A stretch of 64,000 nt of DNA from Heliocybe sulcata. Its lineage: Eukaryota; Basidiomycota; Agaricomycetes; Gloeophyllales; Gloeophyllaceae. The first letter of the stretch is position 1. The number at the start of each line of letters is the position of its first letter. Below, one piece after another: positions 44,908 to 63,156 of this stretch. Under the pieces are notes generated by a model, which was not told where the DNA came from, made no database searches, and saw nothing but the letters and a program-made list of their open reading frames with translations. The translations under genes were made by a program, and so were the position numbers. The DNA lies in the NCBI GenBank assembly GCA_004369045.1, contig ML213507.1:987078-1051077 (forward strand). The letters run 5' to 3'.

Positions 44908-45379
44908 GTTGGTTTGGAGACGAGCATCTCCGAATGAGACACTTGTTGACAAATGGAGTGGTGAATCCATTTGGATATGCGTTGGAATGAGGTACTGTAC
45001 GAGATGGACTGACTCCTGTAATATCTTTTATTGCTGTAATATAGGCATCATTGCTTCTTGAAGACCTGTTCCGATCCTATGCCGACATGCATGTCCATAT
45101 GTACAGTGCTCATGTCGCCAACAAATTGATTCCATGTGGTCAAGCACAGCACTGCTGCACACCATACGTGTTCATCCTCATATTGATGCTGCGCATGTCA
45201 GGTGCTGCAGCCGGGTATGGATGCTACCTGATGTACCGGCTGCTAAAGTGCGCGGGCGACCCACCATTTTGTGAGTATGCCTATTTCTCGGACTTGACTG
45301 ACCGCCATATAACATGAGATGATGCTTGTACAGTATCCTGGGAGGCAGGTCGTTGCTTCCTGGAGCTTTGCTCCTCACA
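44908..45379. other. intergenic
   Basis: A 472-bp gap upstream of the secreted protease. A short plus frame (45051-45317) has no recognisable domain and is not called. Confidence 0.4.
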
Positions 45380-46297
45380 ATGGTCTACTCACTACAAGCA
45401 ATCGGCGTCCTGGTACTGCTCGTCAGCTCTATCCACGCCCTCCCGAATGCTCTCCCAGAGCGCAACGACAATGCTGACCTCTTCCATCTCAAAGCTGAAC
45501 GTCGTTCAGGCCAGGACTTCCAGTCCTTCACGGGCCCCGTCCCGTCCCTGATAACCTGGTCTCGCTCCGTCCTGGAACCATACATGGCCCTCGATTCCTA
45601 CCCGCCCTCCACCCCACGCCCCGCACGTCGCAACATCCAAGGCACCGACGACCGCGTGCCCCAAACCTCGACCTCCTTCCCCTTCACCGCGGTGGGCCGT
45701 GTCGAGTGGTCGGACGGGTACTGGTGCAGCGGGTCGCTGGTGGGTCCGCGGCACGTGGCGACGGCTAAGCACTGCGCGCCCGTGGATGGCGAGCAGGTGA
45801 GCGTGCGGTTCGCGCCCGGATACAACAACGGGAATGTATCGGCGCCAGCGAGCCTCGTAACGGACATGGTGGCGTCGACGAGTAACAGCGGTCCGGCTCC
45901 ATGCTTCGCAGAGTCGGACTGGGCGCTTTTCGTGCTGGAAGAGCGGGTCGGGGATCAGGTTGGGTGGTTTGGTGCGAGGGTACTGGGGGATGGAGGGGAC
46001 GAAGTCGTGGGCAAGCCGGTGTTCACGCATGTTGGATACCCTGAGGATAAAGGGAACTATACCATGTGGGGGCAGACGGGGATTACGGTGCGGGGGACAT
46101 CGTGTGATTCGACAGGTCCACTCGACACCGACGCAGATGTCATTGCAGGGCAGTCTGGAGGTCCAATCTGGTATGACGATGGAGAGGATCACTATGTTTA
46201 TGGGGTGTTGAGCTCTGGGGACGACACGGTGACGAGGTTCTCGAGTGGTGATGTGTGGTTGGCTGCGATCAATAAGCTCAAGGCGGATTATCCATGA
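45380..46297 (+). CDS. secreted trypsin/V8-like serine protease
   Basis: A 305-residue intronless gene. The chosen ATG at 45380 places a signal peptide first (MVYSLQAIGVLVLLVSSIHA), followed by a propeptide-like region and the protease domain. The triad is readable: His in HVATAKHC, Asp in ESDWALFVLEE, and Ser in IAGQSGGPIWYDD. Other family blocks are TAVGRVEWSDGYWCSGSLVG and HVGYPEDKGNYTMWG. The wording of the last blocks resembles bacterial V8/glutamyl endopeptidase-like S1B enzymes more than animal trypsins. Expected site: secreted, breaking down external protein. The Glu specificity is inferred from family likeness only. Confidence 0.88.
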   Translation: MVYSLQAIGVLVLLVSSIHALPNALPERNDNADLFHLKAERRSGQDFQSFTGPVPSLITWSRSVLEPYMALDSYPPSTPRPARRNIQGTDDRVPQTSTSFPFTAVGRVEWSDGYWCSGSLVGPRHVATAKHCAPVDGEQVSVRFAPGYNNGNVSAPASLVTDMVASTSNSGPAPCFAESDWALFVLEERVGDQVGWFGARVLGDGGDEVVGKPVFTHVGYPEDKGNYTMWGQTGITVRGTSCDSTGPLDTDADVIAGQSGGPIWYDDGEDHYVYGVLSSGDDTVTRFSSGDVWLAAINKLKADYP

Positions 46298-46422: not shown

Positions 46423-48836
46423 CTACGTGCAAGCGAAGCTCGTAGCATTATTAGAATCGCCCCCGAGGTAAGTGATCTGTTGAGGATACTGTTGCACCAG
46501 AGACATGGTCATTAAATTTGGCATGGTCTAAGCGTGACAGGACATGCGTACCTTGCAAAGCGGCCTTGTGAACGCAACACCTTGCGTCGCATTATTATTA
46601 TTATAGTACGCGGCAACAAGATGATCCGGAGCAACGCCCTCCTCTACCCATTGTACCATGGCGGATAACACGTTATGGGTAGGGTCGTTGGTCGTAGGAG
46701 GCATTCCACTAGCTGCCTGGCCACCGCCGCCGAAGGCATTTGCACCATAGCCGCCCTAAATAAGGAGAACTTGGTATTCGTTTTCGAGATCAGGTAACGT
46801 GAAGACTAACCGAACTAGCAAATCGAGGCTTATGTCAGCTGACGTGCATTTGGACGACCAGATTATGTTTCTCACCAGTGTGCCATCCCCGGAACCGTAA
46901 ACAGACGGTAATAGTCGTCCATATTCGGCATCGATGTTTGCGCCATCTGATCGCGTACCGTCCCATAGTAATGCAACGAGTTCCCAGCGCTGATAACGTT
47001 GTCGGCCATGCCGACGTAGTGGATGACCTTCCCATTATGTTCCGGACCGACGAAGGGTGTAATATCCGTCGCAATGGCCTGTTTACTTCGATGTCAGCCT
47101 ACATATACAGCGAGATAATGGAGAATGGCGCCGACGTTCATGTTGGCCGCATTCAGTCTATCTGCTAGCTGAATGTCACTGAGGTTGAGCGTAGCAGGAT
47201 CCCAAGTGGTATCACTGATATACAACCACGTAAGCTTTTTGTCATTGGCCGGACATGAAAAGCGTCCAACTCACTTTAGTATGAAATACCGATAATAATC
47301 CACCGATATCGAGCCGATGACCGGGCCAAGCAAGGTGTTCGCGTACCCTCCTTCGCCACCTGGGTAGAGTCCCTCAAAGACGTAGGTCCCGTTCTGGTAG
47401 TACGGAGAGAAGGCGGTGTGTATGGCGTTGATCTGCTCAGGGTTGAGGCATGTCGAGGCGTTCTGTCCCGACTCGCAGGCGAGCGTCTCAGGCTGGAAGC
47501 TACAGCAGATTAATACATGCTATACACTCAGAGCAGAGAATGAGGGGGCAGCTTACTGGCAAATGAGCGGATTGTTGATTATACCATCTGTCACCTACGA
47601 CACATAGTTGTGGTTAGTACCTTAGGGACCCAAAATTGCGCACGGCCAAGACCTACCCCATCCAAAGCATCGCACTGCTTCATCACCTCGTCGTGAATCA
47701 GCCCACTCCACATGTCCTGCGTGATCCACTGTGGGGAGCCAACCGGCAGCACTGCTAGGTTGACATAGATGGACCAGACAGGAAGGTGAGTCATCCAGTT
47801 GGCTGGCGAGCCGACAACCTGGGATATACGTAAGTACAGTCAACATAGGCAAGCAGATGGCTAACGTACCACTCCGTCGAAGTCCTCAGGGAATTGCTGG
47901 ACCTCTTTGAGGCTAAAGGAACAATAAACATAAAGCGCGATATAGCCTTGGAATTCATACTGACCCTTGTCTGCCAGCTACCAGAACGCGAGTTAGGCAT
48001 TGCGAGCGGATAGATCTAATATACGTTACGTACCAGTAGAGCAACCCAGATAGTATGATTTGTTTGCAGCGTTTCCATAGTACTGCTCAGTGACCTGCTT
48101 TCCAGCGATTACACTGAGATGCAGGGCTCGGTATGCAAAATCGATAATAGCGTTCTACAGGAGTTTAGGGACATCTCCGCTCGTTGATGATCATAACATG
48201 AACGTACATCGTTGTGCGGACCGCCCCAGATACCGTCGCCAGCGTTCGAGAGATGGCCCGTGTCTGTCGATACTCCTGCAACTATGGGATCGCGCAAAGT
48301 TCAAGTCCAAGCTACTGGCAGAGAAGGAGCAGCATACATACATCCTTGCTGCACTGCGACGTGGCCCATGTCTGATACGACAACTGAAGCCGATTAAGTC
48401 AGCTGGGAATCCAGTGTGGCCACCCGGGTAGCATCGCACTTACTACCGCCGCCCAAACCTCCACTGCCGAAGCCCAATAGACGACCGTTCCACGAGTCCG
48501 GGAGCCAGACGTCAGTTCCCGCTGTCTTGTTAGCAGTGGCATTTGTAGTGATGGATAATTCAATACCTTTCAGCAGTTCCGCTTAGTCCCATGCGAACGG
48601 TGAATAGAACAACAGCACTTACGGCAGAAGGCTGGGAGGCTATTGGTGTTGATTTGCGAGTAGGGATTCGAGATATTGACAGTGGCTCCTGCAGGATAGT
48701 ACTCAGTGCCGATGAGCGCCACCGTCACGTTCGAGACATCCTGGAGCGTGAAGCTCGAGCAGGCAGTTTCCCCCGGGGTCGCTGCAGGAACGCCTAAAGC
48801 TGCACCCAGTGCAAGGAGAGTGGTAAGAAGAAGCAT
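46423..48836 (-). CDS. secreted tannase / feruloyl esterase
   Basis: A 536-residue enzyme of the fungal tannase/feruloyl esterase family, which cleaves ester-linked phenolic acids from plant material. Fifteen exons: 48623-48836, 48444-48566, 48342-48383, 48208-48281, 48034-48154, 47965-47977 (13 nt), 47870-47912, 47657-47818, 47557-47594, 47275-47499, 47136-47214, 46876-47078, 46811-46814 (4 nt), 46552-46755 and 46423-46488 (1,611 nt). A signal peptide starts MLLLTTLLALGAALG. The CS-D-HC active site is present: Cys189-Ser190 in YYLGCST, Asp404 in VGMADNVIS, His445-Cys446 in PGMAHCSGGYG. A calcium-site-like DALDGVTDGIINNP is seen. The residue after GCST is Ala where Gly is usual. Many N-glycosylation sequons are present. 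Confidence 0.92.
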
Positions 48837-49643
48837 ATTGTCCTGAGGCTCTCATGTGCCGTCTTAGGGCAATATATACACCAGTCGGCGGTCCCACCTA
48901 CATCGCCTGACGACCGTCATGGGTGGACCTGGATGAGAATCGAATCAAGAGGATAGCGTGGTCATGCTCGCACCCTTGGATAAGATTATTTGCCTGGCTC
49001 CTACGCGTGTTCGCTCCGACGGGGAGAGTCTTCTCCGACAGGGCGGAGAGTCTTGGACCCTTGGATACGAGGGAGTGACTGCGCACTCCGGCTGCATTAT
49101 GAAGTAGATAGACGTCTTATACCAAGCGCTCGACCGGTATAACAGAAGTGGCAGAATTAACGTTCGGTTACTTAAACGCTTTCGCTGATCCCTATGTCGC
49201 GAACAGCTGGGAATCTTCGACGCGGCCGATACGCTGGCATGTGCAAGACGACCACGGGACTCGCCCGTGATTCGTGAATATCCCGATGAAGACTGAGCGA
49301 AGGCAAGTGAATTTCAACATTCAAGCTCAAGCCCAAGAGTTCCTGCTCTTGCACCTTTCAGCGTGCTGCTGCGCTTTCAAGCAGAATCTGACACGGAGGC
49401 GAGTCAGATAAGTAACAGGCGTCATGTGAAACAAACGTGAAACCGTGTTCTGTGACGAGCTGCCACTGGAACAAATATCAACAAATAACACGCGTCATTT
49501 AGCTGCTCGCCTGTCAGCCACCGCGAACATATAAGAAGCTGAACGACGCCCGTTCGTTTCCCCATCCCTCTTTACCGCAGACTATCACCTTCACAGCCTA
49601 GGGACCACTCTCTTTTACGCCCTCCAACAAAAGCGACTACATC
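48837..49643. promoter_or_regulatory. divergent promoter region of two secreted-protein genes
   Basis: 807 bp between tannase (minus) and the Kex2-repeat precursor (plus), the two genes that may share control. A TATA-like ATATAAG lies at about 49529, 115 bp before the precursor ATG, and a second (ATATATAC, complement GTATATAT) lies at about 48872, near the tannase start. No gene is seen. Confidence 0.5.
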
Positions 49644-51764
49644 ATGCGCCGTCACATCTACGGCATCGCTGCACTCACCTGGGCTGCGACTGCTCTCGCA
49701 GGTCCCATGTCCAGTGCTAGTCCGACGTTGCACTCTTCCATGTCCGCCGTGTCTCCCACTCCTTCTTGCACGGACTCTGAAAGTATCATCTGCTACTCGT
49801 CTCCCGACAACGCCATCGTGTACGACCGGCGGGACCACACCAAGCCGGATCGGGACGCTCCACATCCAGGATCTCCCTTCGACAGCCCACATCAATCCCA
49901 CAGCAAGCGTGCGGCGGTTGGCGCTCCCACTCACGCTCCTACGTCTAGCGCATCTTCTCCGAGTTTACTGTTTCCGTCTCATCAAGGTCACAGCAACATG
50001 AAGGAACGTGAGGCGGAAGCCTCATCTGCAAGCAGCACTTCCTCAAGCTCTCCTAGTGGCGCAACTCCTAGCAATCTTCTGGGCCTTAATAGCGCGCATA
50101 CATCCCACTCCAAGCGCTCTCATGATGCTTCGTCTACAAGAGGAACTGCTACTGGCTCTTCGAGTGGCGTAGGTCCCAGCAATATCCTTGGCCTTAATAG
50201 CGCGCATACATCCCACTCCAAGCGCTCTCATGACGCCTCATCTACAAGAGGAACTGCTACTGGCTCTTCGAGTGGCGTAGGCCCCAGCAATATTCTTGAC
50301 CTGAATGGTGCGCATACATCCCACGTCAAGCGCTCTCATGATGCCTCGTCTACAAGAGGAACTGCTACTGGCTCTTCTAGCGGCGTAGGTCCCAGCAATA
50401 TTCTTGGCCTGAATGATGCGCATACATCGCACTCGAAGCGCACTTATGAAGCTTCGAGTGCCCGTGCAAGTAGCTCTTCTCTGCCAGGACCTCTTGAAGC
50501 CTTTCTTGACGTGGGTTCTGGAAGGAGGAATCATTCGCAAGCCCAGACCACGGCATCTCCTCGTCCAGGCAAACGCGAGAACCTCCAGGAAGACGCTAGG
50601 CCTCGTCCTCATCAGAGCAGCCACTCCCAGCGTCCTCCCGCAAGTTCATCTTCTGTCCCGGGTGCTGCTCTGACGATGGCTGGAGATGTTGTTGCTGAAC
50701 CTAGTCCTAGGCCGACTGCCGCGCCTCGCGATGTCCAGAAGAACGATGCTCGTAGCAGCTCGTCCACGAGGTCGGTTTCGAGTGGTGTTCCGGGTATCAT
50801 TGCAAAGCGCGACGACGGGCGTCGCAATACGGATCAGAGGTCTTCATCGTCTGCCTCGGCTCACAGGTCCCCTTATAGTCCTTCTGCGAGCCCTCCTGCG
50901 GGAATTGTGCCTTTAGCCTCACCTACTGGTGCTAGTAAGCGCGACGTGACCGCTATGCTCCCGTCGCACCATGGTCAGGCTCCTCCTGATGCTTCGCAGA
51001 TACGGGCTGCGATGCAACCAAGCTTCTCCCCTCCATCTGTCCCTATGCCTACTGCCAAGGATAAATTCGAGAAGGCACCGTCGTCGTCTGCCTCACCTGC
51101 CCCTGGGGGCTTGCTGCCCTTGGTAAAGCGTGGCATGGTCCTGCCGGTTCCTTTGGCTGAGAGCTCGCACACTTCCAGCCGGCATAGCTCGTCGATGACT
51201 GTCGCTGCGAAGCGGGGGGCAGGTGGTTTGCCCTTGCAGGTTGGGCCGAAGGGTTCTGCCACTCCCGGTTCCGTTATGATGGCTGATTTCGCTTCTTCCT
51301 CAACGTCGCACTCGACTACGGGTGCTTCTGCTCTGCCCACTCCTTCGCTTTTGATTCGGGAACCTGGTATCTCTCTGTCAACTAGTTTCTCAACGCACAA
51401 CTCGGTTCCTCGCTCCGTTGCACTGCCCATTTCGCACAACTTCTCTACGCACCATCTTCCGACTCACACCCCGGTTCCAAGGCAAGTGCACAACGCCGAC
51501 TACTCCCACGGCAATGGAACTACTCCTGCTCAGGCTCAAGCCCAAAGCACTGGAAGTCCTGCTACGGAGAAGCGGGGCATGAGAATGGCTGGTAGTTTAC
51601 CCTCTACCCAGAACCGTGCTCCGTACGTCCAACCCGGCTCGAAGGGTGGCGATGCCGATACTGGGAAGCGGTCTGAGGACACGGGAATGCCTGCGTCTGC
51701 GAGTGATGTATCGGGAAAGGCGAAGGGTGCGGCGCGTGGAGCGGCTGCTGCTAAGGGGATGTGA
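49644..51764 (+). CDS. secreted Kex2-processed repeat precursor (KEP-like)
   Basis: An intronless 706-residue protein with a signal peptide (MRRHIYGIAALTWAATALAG). The rest is disordered Ser/Pro/Gly/His-rich sequence with twelve Lys-Arg dipeptides, the cleavage sites of the Golgi protease Kex2. Four KR pairs at residues 157, 193, 229 and 265 are exactly 36 residues apart and bound near-identical units (GVGPSNILGLN, then AHTSHSKR). Later units diverge but most keep a Ser-rich, Pro/Gly, then hydrophobic motif before the KR: SSGVPGIIAKR, SPPAGIVPLASPTGASKR, PAPGGLLPLVKR, GAGGLPLQVG. Only two Cys, both near the start (SCTDSESIICYSS). This is the plan of fungal pheromone, repellent and RiPP precursors; I cannot name the product. 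It diverges from the tannase. Confidence 0.85.
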   Translation: MRRHIYGIAALTWAATALAGPMSSASPTLHSSMSAVSPTPSCTDSESIICYSSPDNAIVYDRRDHTKPDRDAPHPGSPFDSPHQSHSKRAAVGAPTHAPTSSASSPSLLFPSHQGHSNMKEREAEASSASSTSSSSPSGATPSNLLGLNSAHTSHSKRSHDASSTRGTATGSSSGVGPSNILGLNSAHTSHSKRSHDASSTRGTATGSSSGVGPSNILDLNGAHTSHVKRSHDASSTRGTATGSSSGVGPSNILGLNDAHTSHSKRTYEASSARASSSSLPGPLEAFLDVGSGRRNHSQAQTTASPRPGKRENLQEDARPRPHQSSHSQRPPASSSSVPGAALTMAGDVVAEPSPRPTAAPRDVQKNDARSSSSTRSVSSGVPGIIAKRDDGRRNTDQRSSSSASAHRSPYSPSASPPAGIVPLASPTGASKRDVTAMLPSHHGQAPPDASQIRAAMQPSFSPPSVPMPTAKDKFEKAPSSSASPAPGGLLPLVKRGMVLPVPLAESSHTSSRHSSSMTVAAKRGAGGLPLQVGPKGSATPGSVMMADFASSSTSHSTTGASALPTPSLLIREPGISLSTSFSTHNSVPRSVALPISHNFSTHHLPTHTPVPRQVHNADYSHGNGTTPAQAQAQSTGSPATEKRGMRMAGSLPSTQNRAPYVQPGSKGGDADTGKRSEDTGMPASASDVSGKAKGAARGAAAAKGM
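50118..50441 (+). repeat. tandem 108-bp coding repeat (three units)
   Basis: Three head-to-tail units of exactly 108 bp (50118-50225, 50226-50333, 50334-50441), each ending in AAG CGC (Lys-Arg). A partly similar half-unit precedes (about 50060-50117). The third unit differs from the first at only a few positions, so the expansion is recent. Confidence 0.9.
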
Positions 51765-52192: not shown

Positions 52193-55011
52193 TCATAACA
52201 TCGCCACTCCGTTAGCAAAGTCCATCGTTCCAGCCATATTCCTTGCATTGGCGGATACTTCCTTCAAATGAACAGACACGGGATCCACCATGGTGCGTAT
52301 CGTGGACAGTACGGCTGCGGCTGTCTTTTGAAGACTCCATAGGCTGACTGTCTTGATGCGGCGATTGAAGTTGGCTTGGGAGACGTGGTACGCCAGGGCG
52401 TCATAGACCTACAAGGATACAGTTGGCTAACTACCGATCTTGTCGAATAAGTCACGTACCTTCAGCGCGATCTCGTCTGTCAATCCAGCTGTGAGTGATG
52501 GTCAATATCTTGGTTGTGGCACGTCAGTCAGCGCTGCACTCACTCTCCCATAACTGCAAGATGACGATCAGTATCGCATACGTTATACTAAGGAGACCAA
52601 CTTACAGTCCAAGCTCCATCGAATGTAGATAGATCTTGGACAACCCGGCAATGAATAGGTATGAGAGTTCGGTTAGCGCTGCATACCCGAATGACCATCA
52701 GTCATCGCATAACTGGGCAAAGACGATTCTCGCGACCCACTTCATAAAGGCTACAATCGGTCTTATCACCGCCGAGTTCACGTAGGACAAGTCATTCCTG
52801 AACACAGGCACCGCAGCTTTGATATCCCTAAACCTCAAGTCAATATCGATCACCACCTTTGGCTTGCTCTCGCCCTCCTCAGTCCTCTCCTGGTCCCGCA
52901 CGGGCGCGATGAGGGGCGGCTTCGCGAGCTCCCGCTGACCAGGGATGCGCTCAGCGACTGTGGCGATGGCGTCGATGATGGCGTCGATAGCGTCTGGGTC
53001 CTCGTCCTCACGCGGGAACTTGATGTCGAGCACAGCGTCGACTTTGCCGGAGGTGATCCAGGAGATAGGGCCTTCGAGCGTCGTCATCGACTGCAGATGG
53101 TCAATGTTAACGCCATCGATACGCAAGCGTGCCTGTTCAGCAGATAAGCGACCAAGGGCCTCTTTCAACTGTTGGGACACTCACCATCCGTCCCCACTTC
53201 CCCTCACCCAGCTCTCTCTCCGTTGTCCTGCCTATACTCTGTGGAGTATGCAAGCTAAACAGACAATTGTCAAACTGCCCGACGACGTTCTCCGCGTTCA
53301 AGAAATCGTAGAACATCCACTGCTTCCGAAATTTCCTGATATCCGCACGGAAGATCGATGCTGTATAGGGCCGAAAGTTGCCTGGCTGGTGCACAGTGAC
53401 GAGGACATCTTCGAGCTGCAAGAATTCAACCTCGAAGTCGCCGATTTGGGGTTGGTGCCGGAAGAGCGCAGGGTCCAGCGAGTGGTCCGGATCCCAGGTG
53501 ACGCCGCGACGGTCTACGGCAACCAACTAGTGTCAATTTCTCATCCCGCATGCTCTTTGAGGAGTGCGTACCAATGCAACCACGAACACCTTTGACTACG
53601 GCATCCTTAACGAGTCCCTTCCCGTCGAGCCACTGGGGCAGGGATAACGTCACCTCGATAGTATCCACGTTCAAATCGAACATAGTATAATTCACGTCCT
53701 CGTCATGCAAGTCGGCACGCGCAAGAATGTCGTCCTCATCAGCTTCTCCAACAGGACCATGGTGCGCGGGGTGCCCACTGACATCGTAGCCGAGCGCAGC
53801 GGTGTGATCATGAGATGATCGCGCGGATCCCCGTGCTGAGGCTGGCCGGCGGGAGATGTATACGTTCTTAAGCGAGAGACGGGAGTCCTTCCATTTGGGT
53901 ACGATGGCGGATTCGAATATGACTGTAATGCCAGTTTCTTTGGTCAGGTAGTTGCTGATTGCGCGGGCCACGTTTTCTAAATGATGTCAGGAGTGTTAGT
54001 TTCATAGCGTACAGTCTGCGGGAAGAGAGATGGGCAAACACTGATGCACCACGGGATCGAACAGCTTTGATGGATCCAAGACGCCTGAGACCCACAATAT
54101 ATGCGCCCAGAAGGCCTGAATCCATATGCCGTTGCTCAGCAGTGGTCATACAATCATGCTAGCGGGCATGAAGCGATAAAATGGATGAAATGCAGAATCA
54201 CCTTGCAAGCGCAAACTGTTGACGGTGGCAAATATCACAGAAAAGAACGTGGTCCTATATAACACGAGCATGACATCACCGACACGCTAGACACACGGAC
54301 GAGTACTCACGTTCCGACAAAGATCCAAAGCGTTTGGCTCATAAGGAACCAAGTGACAAAAGCAGAGATATCATCGGCATTCCATTTCCGAAAGGAACGT
54401 ATGGTGAACCATCTAAAGTTGATGCGAACCCTGTCCCAGAAGCTATTCGTCACGCGAAGGAAATCTTCGCGCGTAGGCCTATGGGGATGAGGCAGATGCA
54501 TGGCAAGGCGGCGGAAGAGGGGAGGGTAATTGTCAAGCCGGGGAGCAGGATTGGAAGGGTCAGTCGACTCCGAGAGGGTCGTTGAAGGCTCGTTATCGGG
54601 CGGCTTGGGTTCTGGACTGCCAGAGTCAGACACTGGCTTTTGCGTTTGCTGCTGCAGAGACGTCGAGGAAAGATGGAAGCAACGCGTAAGTTGGGCCGAT
54701 AGTCCTGGAGTGCCACATGCCGCTCGTAAAGGACCACTTCTCCAATGTAGAAGCCCAGTATCATGAACGTAACTTCTCCGCACCTGGTAAGCAGGGCGTT
54801 CCGAGGGAGTTGTGGACGTCGGACGACCCGCTACTGGCAAGTAACTCCTCTGCGTTCCCAGCCGTCGTTCCACAGCAAGACTTCCATTCCGCCTGAAGAA
54901 ATGTCGGATAGCAGCGTATCGGTCCCAAGCAGCATTGTGCGAGCAAGCACGCGACCCAGACGCGCTCGCCACTCGTGCAAGACCAGGCAGAAAAGCTCTC
55001 TCCGATAGCAT
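52193..55011 (-). CDS. MDM31: Mitochondrial distribution and morphology protein 31 (MDM31)
   Basis: This inner-membrane protein is needed for normal mitochondrial shape, DNA maintenance and lipid homeostasis. Nine exons: 54311-55011, 54202-54254, 53572-53976, 53185-53513, 52741-53132, 52606-52678, a 10-nt micro-exon 52544-52553, 52460-52488 and 52193-52408 (2,208 nt, 735 aa). The N-terminal part is Arg/Ser-rich (targeting), then HRPTREDFLRVTNSFWDRVR and a first span (WFLMSQTLWIFVGTT). The core has ARAISNYLTKETGITVIFES, VRGCIDRRGVTWDP, LRIDGVNIDHLQSM, and the end RRIKTVSLWSLQKT. A 225-bp intron (53977-54201) is long for this genome. The region from the first span on matches Mdm31/Mdm32 closely. 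Confidence 0.93.
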
Positions 55012-61900: not shown

Positions 61901-63156
61901 CATCGGAGGAGTTGCGGGTCACCACTGACATTATACATTGTGACAACGATAAACAACTCCGCCGACCGACTCCACTCATTCTGTCTCAAGAAGAACCCAC
62001 TGCTCTCAAAATCGTCCGGGTCGCAGGTCACCGCTGTATACCGTGTCGTCATCATCTCCGCCTCATAGCGTGGCAGGATCAGCTTCGGCGGTACGTCCAG
62101 CTCGACGACGAGGTTCCCATTCGTGAGCTGCACACGCTTCTTAGTCCTATTCCGCCTGTGTATCCGGCCGGACGGCGCAGGACCAAAGTGCATGGTCGGA
62201 AGCGGCGTAGGCGGGGAGCCCGAGAACCGGGACGACATCTTCTCGCTATCCGCGTGGTCGCCCGAGAGCAGGTACTGGCCGTCATCCAGATGTTTCTCAC
62301 TACTGTAGCCGGCGTAGGGCACGTTTGCACCGTCGACGAGCTCGTACTCTTCCTCGGTGCGTTCCGGACTGGGCGACCTGGAGCGCGGAGGGTGGTAGGA
62401 AGCGCGAGAGTAAATACCCGAAGCGTATGCTTCGGTATCGTGTTGGAAATGATCCACATAGCTCCCAGTTGCTGTAGGCAATTGTTCGGAGGAAGCATAG
62501 GAAGCGTAAGAATCACGCGAGGGCTGCATGGTGTGGAATGAGCCATTGGGAGTGTGTTGACTATAACCTGATACTGGACGAGGTGGCGCACGAGACTGAG
62601 CGGACGAGTCAACAAAAGGATCGTTCTCTGTGGGAAGCAGCGCGTTCCATTCCAAGGGCTCGCCAGAGTTGATAGTCGGTAGATACGCAGAGGGCTGGGC
62701 GCGGTCATGTGAGTAACGAGATTCGTTCGCACCATCGTCGACCTTCTTAGGCTCTGTCCATCCGTACCCATGTCCCTCCTGCTCCACCGCGGTCTCTCCG
62801 GAAGATGAGCTATGTCTCCCGACCGAATGTCTGTCCACTTCGGGTTGCATATTAGCCCCGGCAGGTGCAGCCGGCCCAGGTGGTAGAGTCCGAACAGGGC
62901 TCTGAGATCGTGAGCGGGGCCGCAGGACTGCCTGGCTTTGCAAATGCTGAAGTGCTCTTTCGATGTTTGAAGGACCTGAAGCGTGAGTTGTGACAGGTGC
63001 GTCGGTTAAAGTGTATCTTCGTACGTCAGAACCAGCGAAGGACGCCGGCCGCGACTGTTGTTCAGAACCAGCAAAGGATGTCGGCCGCGACTGTTGTTCA
63101 TTGGGTTGGTCGTCAAGGAGTTCGTATGAGGGTGCTGGCTTTCTTCTGTTTGCCAT
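58986..63156 (-). CDS. Chitin synthase (class I-III type, 19 exons)
   Basis: This plasma-membrane glycosyltransferase polymerises N-acetylglucosamine for the cell wall. Nineteen exons: 61930-63156, 61773-61880, 61412-61720, 61197-61356, 61055-61137, 60982-61004, 60823-60929, 60756-60769 (14 nt), 60659-60702, 60372-60603, 60295-60315 (21 nt), 60166-60240, 60047-60108, 59840-59991, 59682-59784, 59355-59625, 59273-59299, 59095-59220 and 58986-59036 (3,195 nt, 1,064 aa). After a long disordered N-terminus come [47 protein letters not shown], the EDR motif (about residues 676-678), [14 protein letters not shown] (QRRRW at about 716-720), and several C-terminal spans. There is no myosin or cytochrome-b5 domain. 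The last intron (59037-59094) is supported by the typical ending [13 protein letters not shown]. Confidence 0.95.

Follow-up and report, generated by a model that had tools for sequence, protein, structure and literature searches.

A long open reading frame in Heliocybe sulcata combines numerous Lys-Arg (KR) pairs with a tandem repeat. Does it encode a precursor that is cut into secreted peptides, and if so, to which class of precursor does it belong? The open reading frame is at positions 49644–51764 (plus strand) of a 64,000-nucleotide stretch of genomic DNA, the whole of which is termed the window, and it displays a translated sequence of 706 amino acids. All parts of the precursor described below are on the plus strand.

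Open Reading Frame and Signal Peptide

The frame opens at position 49602, and the ATG at 49644 is its first start codon. It continues unbroken through 706 codons to a TGA stop codon that ends at 51764. The start codon has an A at −3, and a TATAAG sequence is seen by eye 5′ of it at positions 49530–49535. The open reading frame was scanned with the simple intron consensus patterns GTRNGT (donor) and RCTRAC (branch site). Four donor-like sites are present in its interior but there is no branch-like site, and no intron is recognised by these patterns. The proportion of A at third codon positions is low (0.05–0.17) all along the sequence; thus the whole frame looks coding.

The N-terminus of the translated sequence is MRRH followed by IYGIAALTWAATALA, which is the most hydrophobic 15-residue segment of the protein (mean hydropathy 1.56). 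Residues 1–19 (MRRHIYGIAALTWAATALA, positions 49644–49700) form a likely signal peptide, with Ala at −3 and −1 relative to a cut after residue 19. The most hydrophobic 15-residue segment outside the signal peptide is at residues 490–504; its mean hydropathy is 1.33 and it spans a KR. This is not far below the 1.56 of the signal peptide, but the presence of a membrane segment seems unlikely. The chain ends in KGAARGAAAAKGM, and the last 20 residues have a mean hydropathy of −0.21. This C-terminus has no hydrophobic tail, and therefore no GPI signal is seen.

The precursor is rich in Ser (141 of 706 residues) and has 52 Thr. Its two Cys (residues 42 and 50) are both in the pro-region, where Tyr is found at residues 51 and 60; the other Tyr are at residues 268, 411, 620 and 661, in pieces that are not repeats. 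The sole Trp is in the signal peptide. An AlphaFold2 model made with single-sequence input has a mean pLDDT of 34, with no helix or strand of note and no confident structure. Since the model is poor and comes from one sequence, it points only weakly to a disordered chain.

Lys-Arg Sites

The Lys of the twelve KR sites is at residues 88, 157, 193, 229, 265, 310, 388, 432, 495, 523, 643 and 675. Cuts behind them would give pieces of 89, 69, 36, 36, 36, 45, 78, 44, 63, 28, 120, 32 and 30 residues. Twelve of these 13 pieces have a mean hydropathy between −0.27 and −0.90, and the remaining one has 0.17.

This number of KR sites is far above the 1.4 expected from composition, and none of 20000 composition shuffles reaches 12. 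When repeat units 2 and 3 are removed and units 0 and 1 are kept, 10 KR remain (1.3 expected), a number also reached by none of 20000 shuffles. A dipeptide count of the precursor finds no RK and no KK, and RR occurs three times after the signal peptide. In all twelve KR the Lys codon is AAG or AAA and the Arg codon is CGN. The window has 108 other stop-to-stop open reading frames with a length of 120 aa or more, of which many are not genes; together they have 78 KR (61 expected) and 75 RK. They show no such bias, and the bias is thus particular to the precursor. Composition alone cannot explain an excess of KR with zero RK; recognition by a protease that cuts at KR can.

The residues that follow the sites were also analyzed. 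Of the 12 sites, 8 have an Asp or Glu among the four residues following KR, whereas random places give 2.7 (p ~0.001). When all SHDA sites but one are left out, the count is 6 of 10 (2.2 at random places, p ~0.01), and after monobasic Arg, which served as a control, it is 6 of 27. Kex2 is described as preferring acidic residues at P1′, P2′ and P4′ (PMC2515848). At these positions alone, 4 of the 12 sites have an acid (2.1 at random places, p 0.14), and the remaining four of the eight acid-bearing sites have it at P3′ only (SHDA three times, TYEA once). The acid context is therefore at best partial support for cutting by Kex2.

Two segments resemble altered KR sites. KEREAEA (residues 120–126, positions 50001–50021) has a Glu inside a KR-like site, and its EAEA resembles a Ste13 spacer; KER at residues 120–122 is possibly a decayed or lost cut site. 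SSHSQR (residues 325–330, positions 50616–50633) resembles the ends of other pieces, QSHSKR and TSHSKR, but for a Gln in place of the Lys, and the HSQR within it is possibly also a lost cut site. This likeness suggests that sites may come and go in the pieces over time.

Repeat Units

The pro-region (residues 20–89, positions 49701–49910) ends in QSHSKR. It is followed by residues 90–122 (positions 49911–50009), the start of the second KR-bounded piece, which end in KER and are followed directly by EAEA. The tandem repeat comes next. Tandem Repeats Finder reports a 108-nt unit in 3.8 copies at positions 50047–50456. In the translated sequence there are four units, all precisely 36 codons long and in phase with the KR sites, with KR at the end: the diverged unit 0 (residues 123–158, positions 50010–50117), unit 1 (residues 159–194, positions 50118–50225), unit 2 (residues 195–230, positions 50226–50333) and unit 3 (residues 231–266, positions 50334–50441). 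HTSHSKR ends units 0, 1 and 3 (at residues 152, 188 and 260), and HTSHVKR ends unit 2. The signal peptide, the twelve KR sites and the 36-residue repeat ending in HTSHSKR that were noted in a preliminary description of this DNA are thus all seen, the signal peptide as a likely one. The 34-residue product that had been suggested between KR sites is likewise supported.

None of the four units has a Tyr or a Cys. Residues invariant in all four include KR, PSN and AHTSH, as well as Leu24 and Leu26 of the unit.

Units 1–3 differ from their majority sequence by 16 single-base changes, of which 11 are silent and 5 are replacements. A transition-weighted null predicts a replacement share of 69% (binomial p = 0.002); this count treats every changed base as independent and ignores gene conversion, and sixteen changes are few. 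Pairwise dN among units 1–3 is 0.03–0.05 and dS is 0.28–0.35. Comparisons of unit 0 with the other units give dN 0.26–0.33 and dS 0.44–0.58, a much weaker constraint. Because silent changes exceed replacements among the near-identical units 1–3, the peptide encoded by the repeat has probably been kept by selection. Selection on the released peptides had been proposed earlier, and for the repeat the 11 to 5 count speaks in its favor.

Pieces Outside the Tandem Repeat

The second part of the precursor consists of eight pieces. Residues 267–311 (positions 50442–50576) are followed by residues 312–389 (positions 50577–50810), which contain HSQR, residues 390–433 (positions 50811–50942), residues 434–496 (positions 50943–51131), which end in PGGLLPLVKR, residues 497–524 (positions 51132–51215), residues 525–644 (positions 51216–51575), the longest piece, residues 645–676 (positions 51576–51671), and the C-terminal piece, residues 677–706 (positions 51672–51764 with the stop codon).

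Do these pieces share a motif? It had been stated that most pieces keep a hydrophobic motif near the KR. Tests of this kind were performed on 11 pieces, with unit 159–194 kept and 123–158, 195–230 and 231–266 left out. A pattern built from the original wording is found in 6 of the 11 pieces, with 1.9 expected (a count of 6 or more in 13 of 5000 shuffles); this test is post hoc, and one of the six hits is the repeat, which is present by construction. The clustering of hydrophobic residues within pieces exceeds chance (62 of 5000 shuffles). The statement is supported in part only: the clusters are 0 to 93 residues from the ends of the pieces and are not consistently near KR, and there is no clear motif in an unbiased search of the 11 pieces, of limited power, with widths of 6, 8, 11 and 14, two pieces droppable and 60 shuffles each (8, 4, 26 and 22 of the 60 shuffles, respectively, reach the observed score). 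Ser runs (36 adjacent pairs, 24.9 expected; 26 of 5000 shuffles) and the Ser-His pair (88 of 5000 shuffles) are above chance.

When the repeat unit is aligned to residues 267–706 as a whole, the score is no better than in shuffles (271 of 2000). Among the pieces that contain no unit, the N-terminal piece is mildly similar to it (20 of 1000 shuffles), and residues 267–311 show a similarly weak resemblance (18 of 1000). The other seven pieces show no similarity to it above chance (147 to 962 of 1000 shuffles). Thus hidden repeats were not found in the second half at the sensitivity of the alignment and the motif search. The pieces thus share a style (Ser-rich, with Pro/Gly and a short hydrophobic patch) and not a proven motif.

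Database Searches and Neighboring Genes

The precursor protein has no match in Pfam, NCBIfam or PDB. Pattern searches gave 52 matches in prokaryote genome contigs and 2 in viral contigs, none of which was confirmed as a homologue, and the plasmid and phage collections have no homologue. The genome, phage and plasmid collections are of prokaryotes and viruses, and so these results are no evidence that the precursor is an orphan. Four exact strings of the repeat have no match in the literature searched.

The neighborhood was scanned with Pfam in six frames from 19 to 64 kb of the window (45 kb, E up to 0.01), a scan in which domains split by exons could be missed. Matches include an isochorismatase, an NADH-oxidoreductase subunit, Autophagy_act_C, a LYAR zinc finger, an ILVD/EDD dehydratase, PRMT, a Bax1-inhibitor protein, a trypsin-like protease and a tannase. 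Past the precursor gene are an MDM31/32 protein (~52740–54274, minus strand), a BAR protein and a chitin synthase. On these matches, the neighbors look like ordinary genes, and the MDM31/32 protein and the chitin synthase agree with a fungal origin. There is no DUF3328/UstYa match in this region at the same threshold. The pattern HxxHC of UstYa-type enzymes has four isolated occurrences across the whole window, never more than one together, and is the sole check for such enzymes in the segment from 1 to 19 kb.

The tannase/feruloyl esterase gene (46429–48836, minus strand) has its domain at ~46429–48154, and an open reading frame starting at 48836 looks by eye like its N-terminus. It is divergent from the precursor gene, and the likely starts of the two are ~0.8 kb apart. 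A secreted-looking trypsin-like serine protease (45323–46297, plus strand) is encoded upstream of the tannase; no link to processing is implied. A 36-nt tandem repeat of about two copies is at positions 63026–63100, in a minus-strand frame upstream of the chitin synthase N-terminal domain.

Relationship to Kex2-Processed Repeat Proteins

The preliminary description considered that the locus could be a new secreted peptide family. A new kind of precursor is not supported, as such precursors are a described class, the Kex2-processed repeat proteins (KEPs) (PMC6339444, PMC7329392, PMC9769878). According to these surveys, dated 2019–2022, there are about five KEPs per basidiomycete strain, with mostly unknown functions. 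Umemura (2020) lists 7878 KEPs in 1345 of 1461 strains, with 5.30 per basidiomycete strain and 2560 stand-alone KEPs without a homologue (PMC7329392). KEP peptides described from Coprinopsis and other mushrooms are linear and hardly modified, and the knockout of six kep genes is reported to give no phenotype (PMC9769878). The same study also made use of expression in Pichia pastoris.

The precursor resembles KEPs in its likely signal peptide, in at least three similar pieces between dibasic Kex2 sites and in the presumed linear form of its peptides. Because a signal peptide and repeats between dibasic sites are the features of the class, it is assigned to this known and populous class, and not to a new kind, with a probability of about 0.78. 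The published definitions can be compared one by one. Le Marquer (2019) uses at least four fragments at KR or RR, and KR alone gives 13 here. At least three fragments are to have a similar motif; the precursor has three near-identical 36-aa pieces and a fourth unit inside the 69-aa piece, as counted without the FIMO step of that survey. For the rule of a signal peptide without a membrane span, the N-terminal hydropathy and the Ala at −3 and −1 fit, but the next most hydrophobic segment, which spans a KR, comes close to the signal peptide (1.33 as compared with 1.56). By the coverage cut-off of 15% (smallest motif × copies) the precursor is borderline, with 14.4% (34 × 3), 15.3% (36 × 3) or 19.3% (34 × 4). 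Umemura (2020) uses at least three tandem repeats of at least 8 aa between KR, KK, RK or RR, and such repeats are present, as counted without the scoring script of that study. The 100-aa rule of the same study is worded in two ways, i.e. no repeated, or no separated, sequence over 100 aa (PMC7329392). The repeats here are 34–36 aa and one non-repeat piece is 120 aa, which may exclude the precursor under one of the wordings.

There are also differences from the class. Most pieces of the precursor are non-repeats, and it counts against the assignment that there are only four repeat units and that the other pieces share no clear sequence. The profile of KEP type G-1, found in most genera, is rich in Tyr (PMC7329392), whereas the repeat unit of this precursor has none. 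Units of 9–24 aa are described as the commonest in the Dikarya and units of 25–50 aa as another class (PMC6339444); the 34-aa unit is in the latter and not in the former.

Alternative Explanations

A precursor of the Rep1 type is a more specific form of the KEP explanation, with the same processing plus a role: amphipathic peptides would form surface-active fibrils on hyphae and aid aerial growth or attachment. Rep1 of Ustilago maydis is described as a 652-aa protein with twelve mostly tandem repeats of 34–55 aa, cut by Kex2 into ten peptides of 35–53 aa and one of 228 aa (PMC4617103), and ten of the repeats are reported as strongly conserved (PMC2515848). By the layout as described, the precursor is close to Rep1 in total length (706 aa), number of sites (12 KR), unit length (34 aa) and the presence of one long piece towards the C-terminus (118 aa after trimming), and the clustering of hydrophobic residues within pieces fits as well. 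The layout is closest to that of Rep1, and a surface role is thus the main specific rival. It is nevertheless considered rather unlikely, because the pieces are hydrophilic in 12 of 13 cases; in addition, a Rep1-type protein would have at least ten similar amphipathic repeats of ~34–55 aa between Kex2 sites, and there are four repeat units here. Hum3 of U. maydis also has tandem units of 31–36 aa between putative Kex2 sites, but a hydrophobin domain is described after its repeats (PMC4617103), whereas the precursor has no Pfam domain and two Cys only. A protein of the wall itself should also be considered, i.e. a Ser/Thr-rich, O-glycosylated, mucin-like protein whose KR sites would be genuine cut sites in a few cases at most. 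Proteins of this kind often hold tandem repeats, and the Ser and Thr content and the excess of Ser pairs agree with it. This explanation is improbable: it gives no reason for an excess of KR with zero RK, the sequence has no PIR-type repeat by motif and three N-glycosylation sequons only, and the hydrophobic C-terminal tail of a GPI-anchored wall protein is absent.

Two other kinds of precursor share features with this one. Dikaritin precursors (ustiloxin, phomopsin, asperipin) have an identical plan, being secreted and having Kex2 sites between repeats, and the core would be cyclised by UstYa-type enzymes, which would here be encoded elsewhere. In the dikaritins Tyr in the repeated core is frequent but not universal. 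The earlier remark that the locus does not look like a known dikaritin is borne out: there is no UstYa/DUF3328 match in the 45 kb scanned (19–64 kb), HxxHC occurs only singly, the neighbors look ordinary and the repeated unit has no Tyr or Cys. Thus the precursor is probably not a dikaritin, and such a precursor with its enzymes elsewhere, for instance outside the window, is given hardly any weight. The accompanying statement that the core has no Tyr or Cys is correct for the four repeat units, but Tyr is present at four places (residues 268, 411, 620 and 661) in other pieces, which is in favor of a dikaritin, as is the report that 22% of all KEPs are near DUF3328 genes, though this is so for only 103 of 1680 in basidiomycetes (PMC7329392). 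The other kind is an alpha-type pheromone-like signaling peptide with Ste13 trimming, for which the EAEA directly after KER can be cited, together with the existence of basidiomycete KEPs that have Ste13 signatures (PMC6339444). No intact KR precedes this EAEA and no other run of the kind was seen by eye, the 34-residue unit exceeds the 9–24 aa of the pheromone class (PMC6339444), and the sole Trp lies in the signal peptide. Moreover, the mating pheromones of basidiomycetes are described as prenylated and made in the cytoplasm (PMC9769878), and the precursor has no Cys after residue 50. A pheromone-like precursor is accordingly very unlikely.

Proposed Processing and Possible Role

With the precursor taken as a KEP, its signal peptide would send the chain into the secretory pathway. 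Kex2 would cut behind the twelve Lys-Arg pairs in the late Golgi, Kex1 would trim the basic ends off the pieces, and a mixture of unmodified linear peptides would exit the cell. The order of signal peptidase, Kex2, Kex1 and secretion is the one described for dikaritin-type and KEP precursors (PMC9769878), and it is by analogy that we infer secretion, cleavage, trimming, lack of modification and the role of the peptides. The products would be three or four near-copies of 34 residues, SHDASSTRGTATGSSSGVGPSNILxLNxAHTSHx, and some eight further pieces, Ser/Pro-rich and unlike one another, with lengths of ~26–118 residues. The monoisotopic neutral masses calculated for the trimmed units without modification are 3236.50 (residues 159–192), 3276.54 (residues 195–228) and 3264.50 (residues 231–264), and 3215.45 for residues 123–156 in case KER is cut as well.

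The peptides would most likely stay in the wall or the medium and act outside the cell. What they may do there is a matter of judgement and not of computation: a role towards other organisms is plausible at somewhat less than even odds, a surface or wall role like that of Rep1 is a lesser possibility, and mating or hormone signaling would be surprising. A further, speculative view, regarded as unlikely, is that the precursor represents a fungal polyprotein resembling pro-opiomelanocortin, that releases roughly twelve different linear peptides. One of these would have been amplified fourfold in tandem and retained by selection while the others diversify, and a peptide family confined to the lineage would have been founded.

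The precursor is probably functional as a source of peptides. KEPs are common in fungi, and most have no known function. The present one is well suited to peptide detection: the sequence sets the masses of the 34-residue units, and the excess of silent changes makes the repeat worth testing. The long mixed layout is at the edge of published search rules, which suggests that such precursors may be under-counted. If the peptides assemble on hyphae, the repellent idea would extend beyond the smuts.
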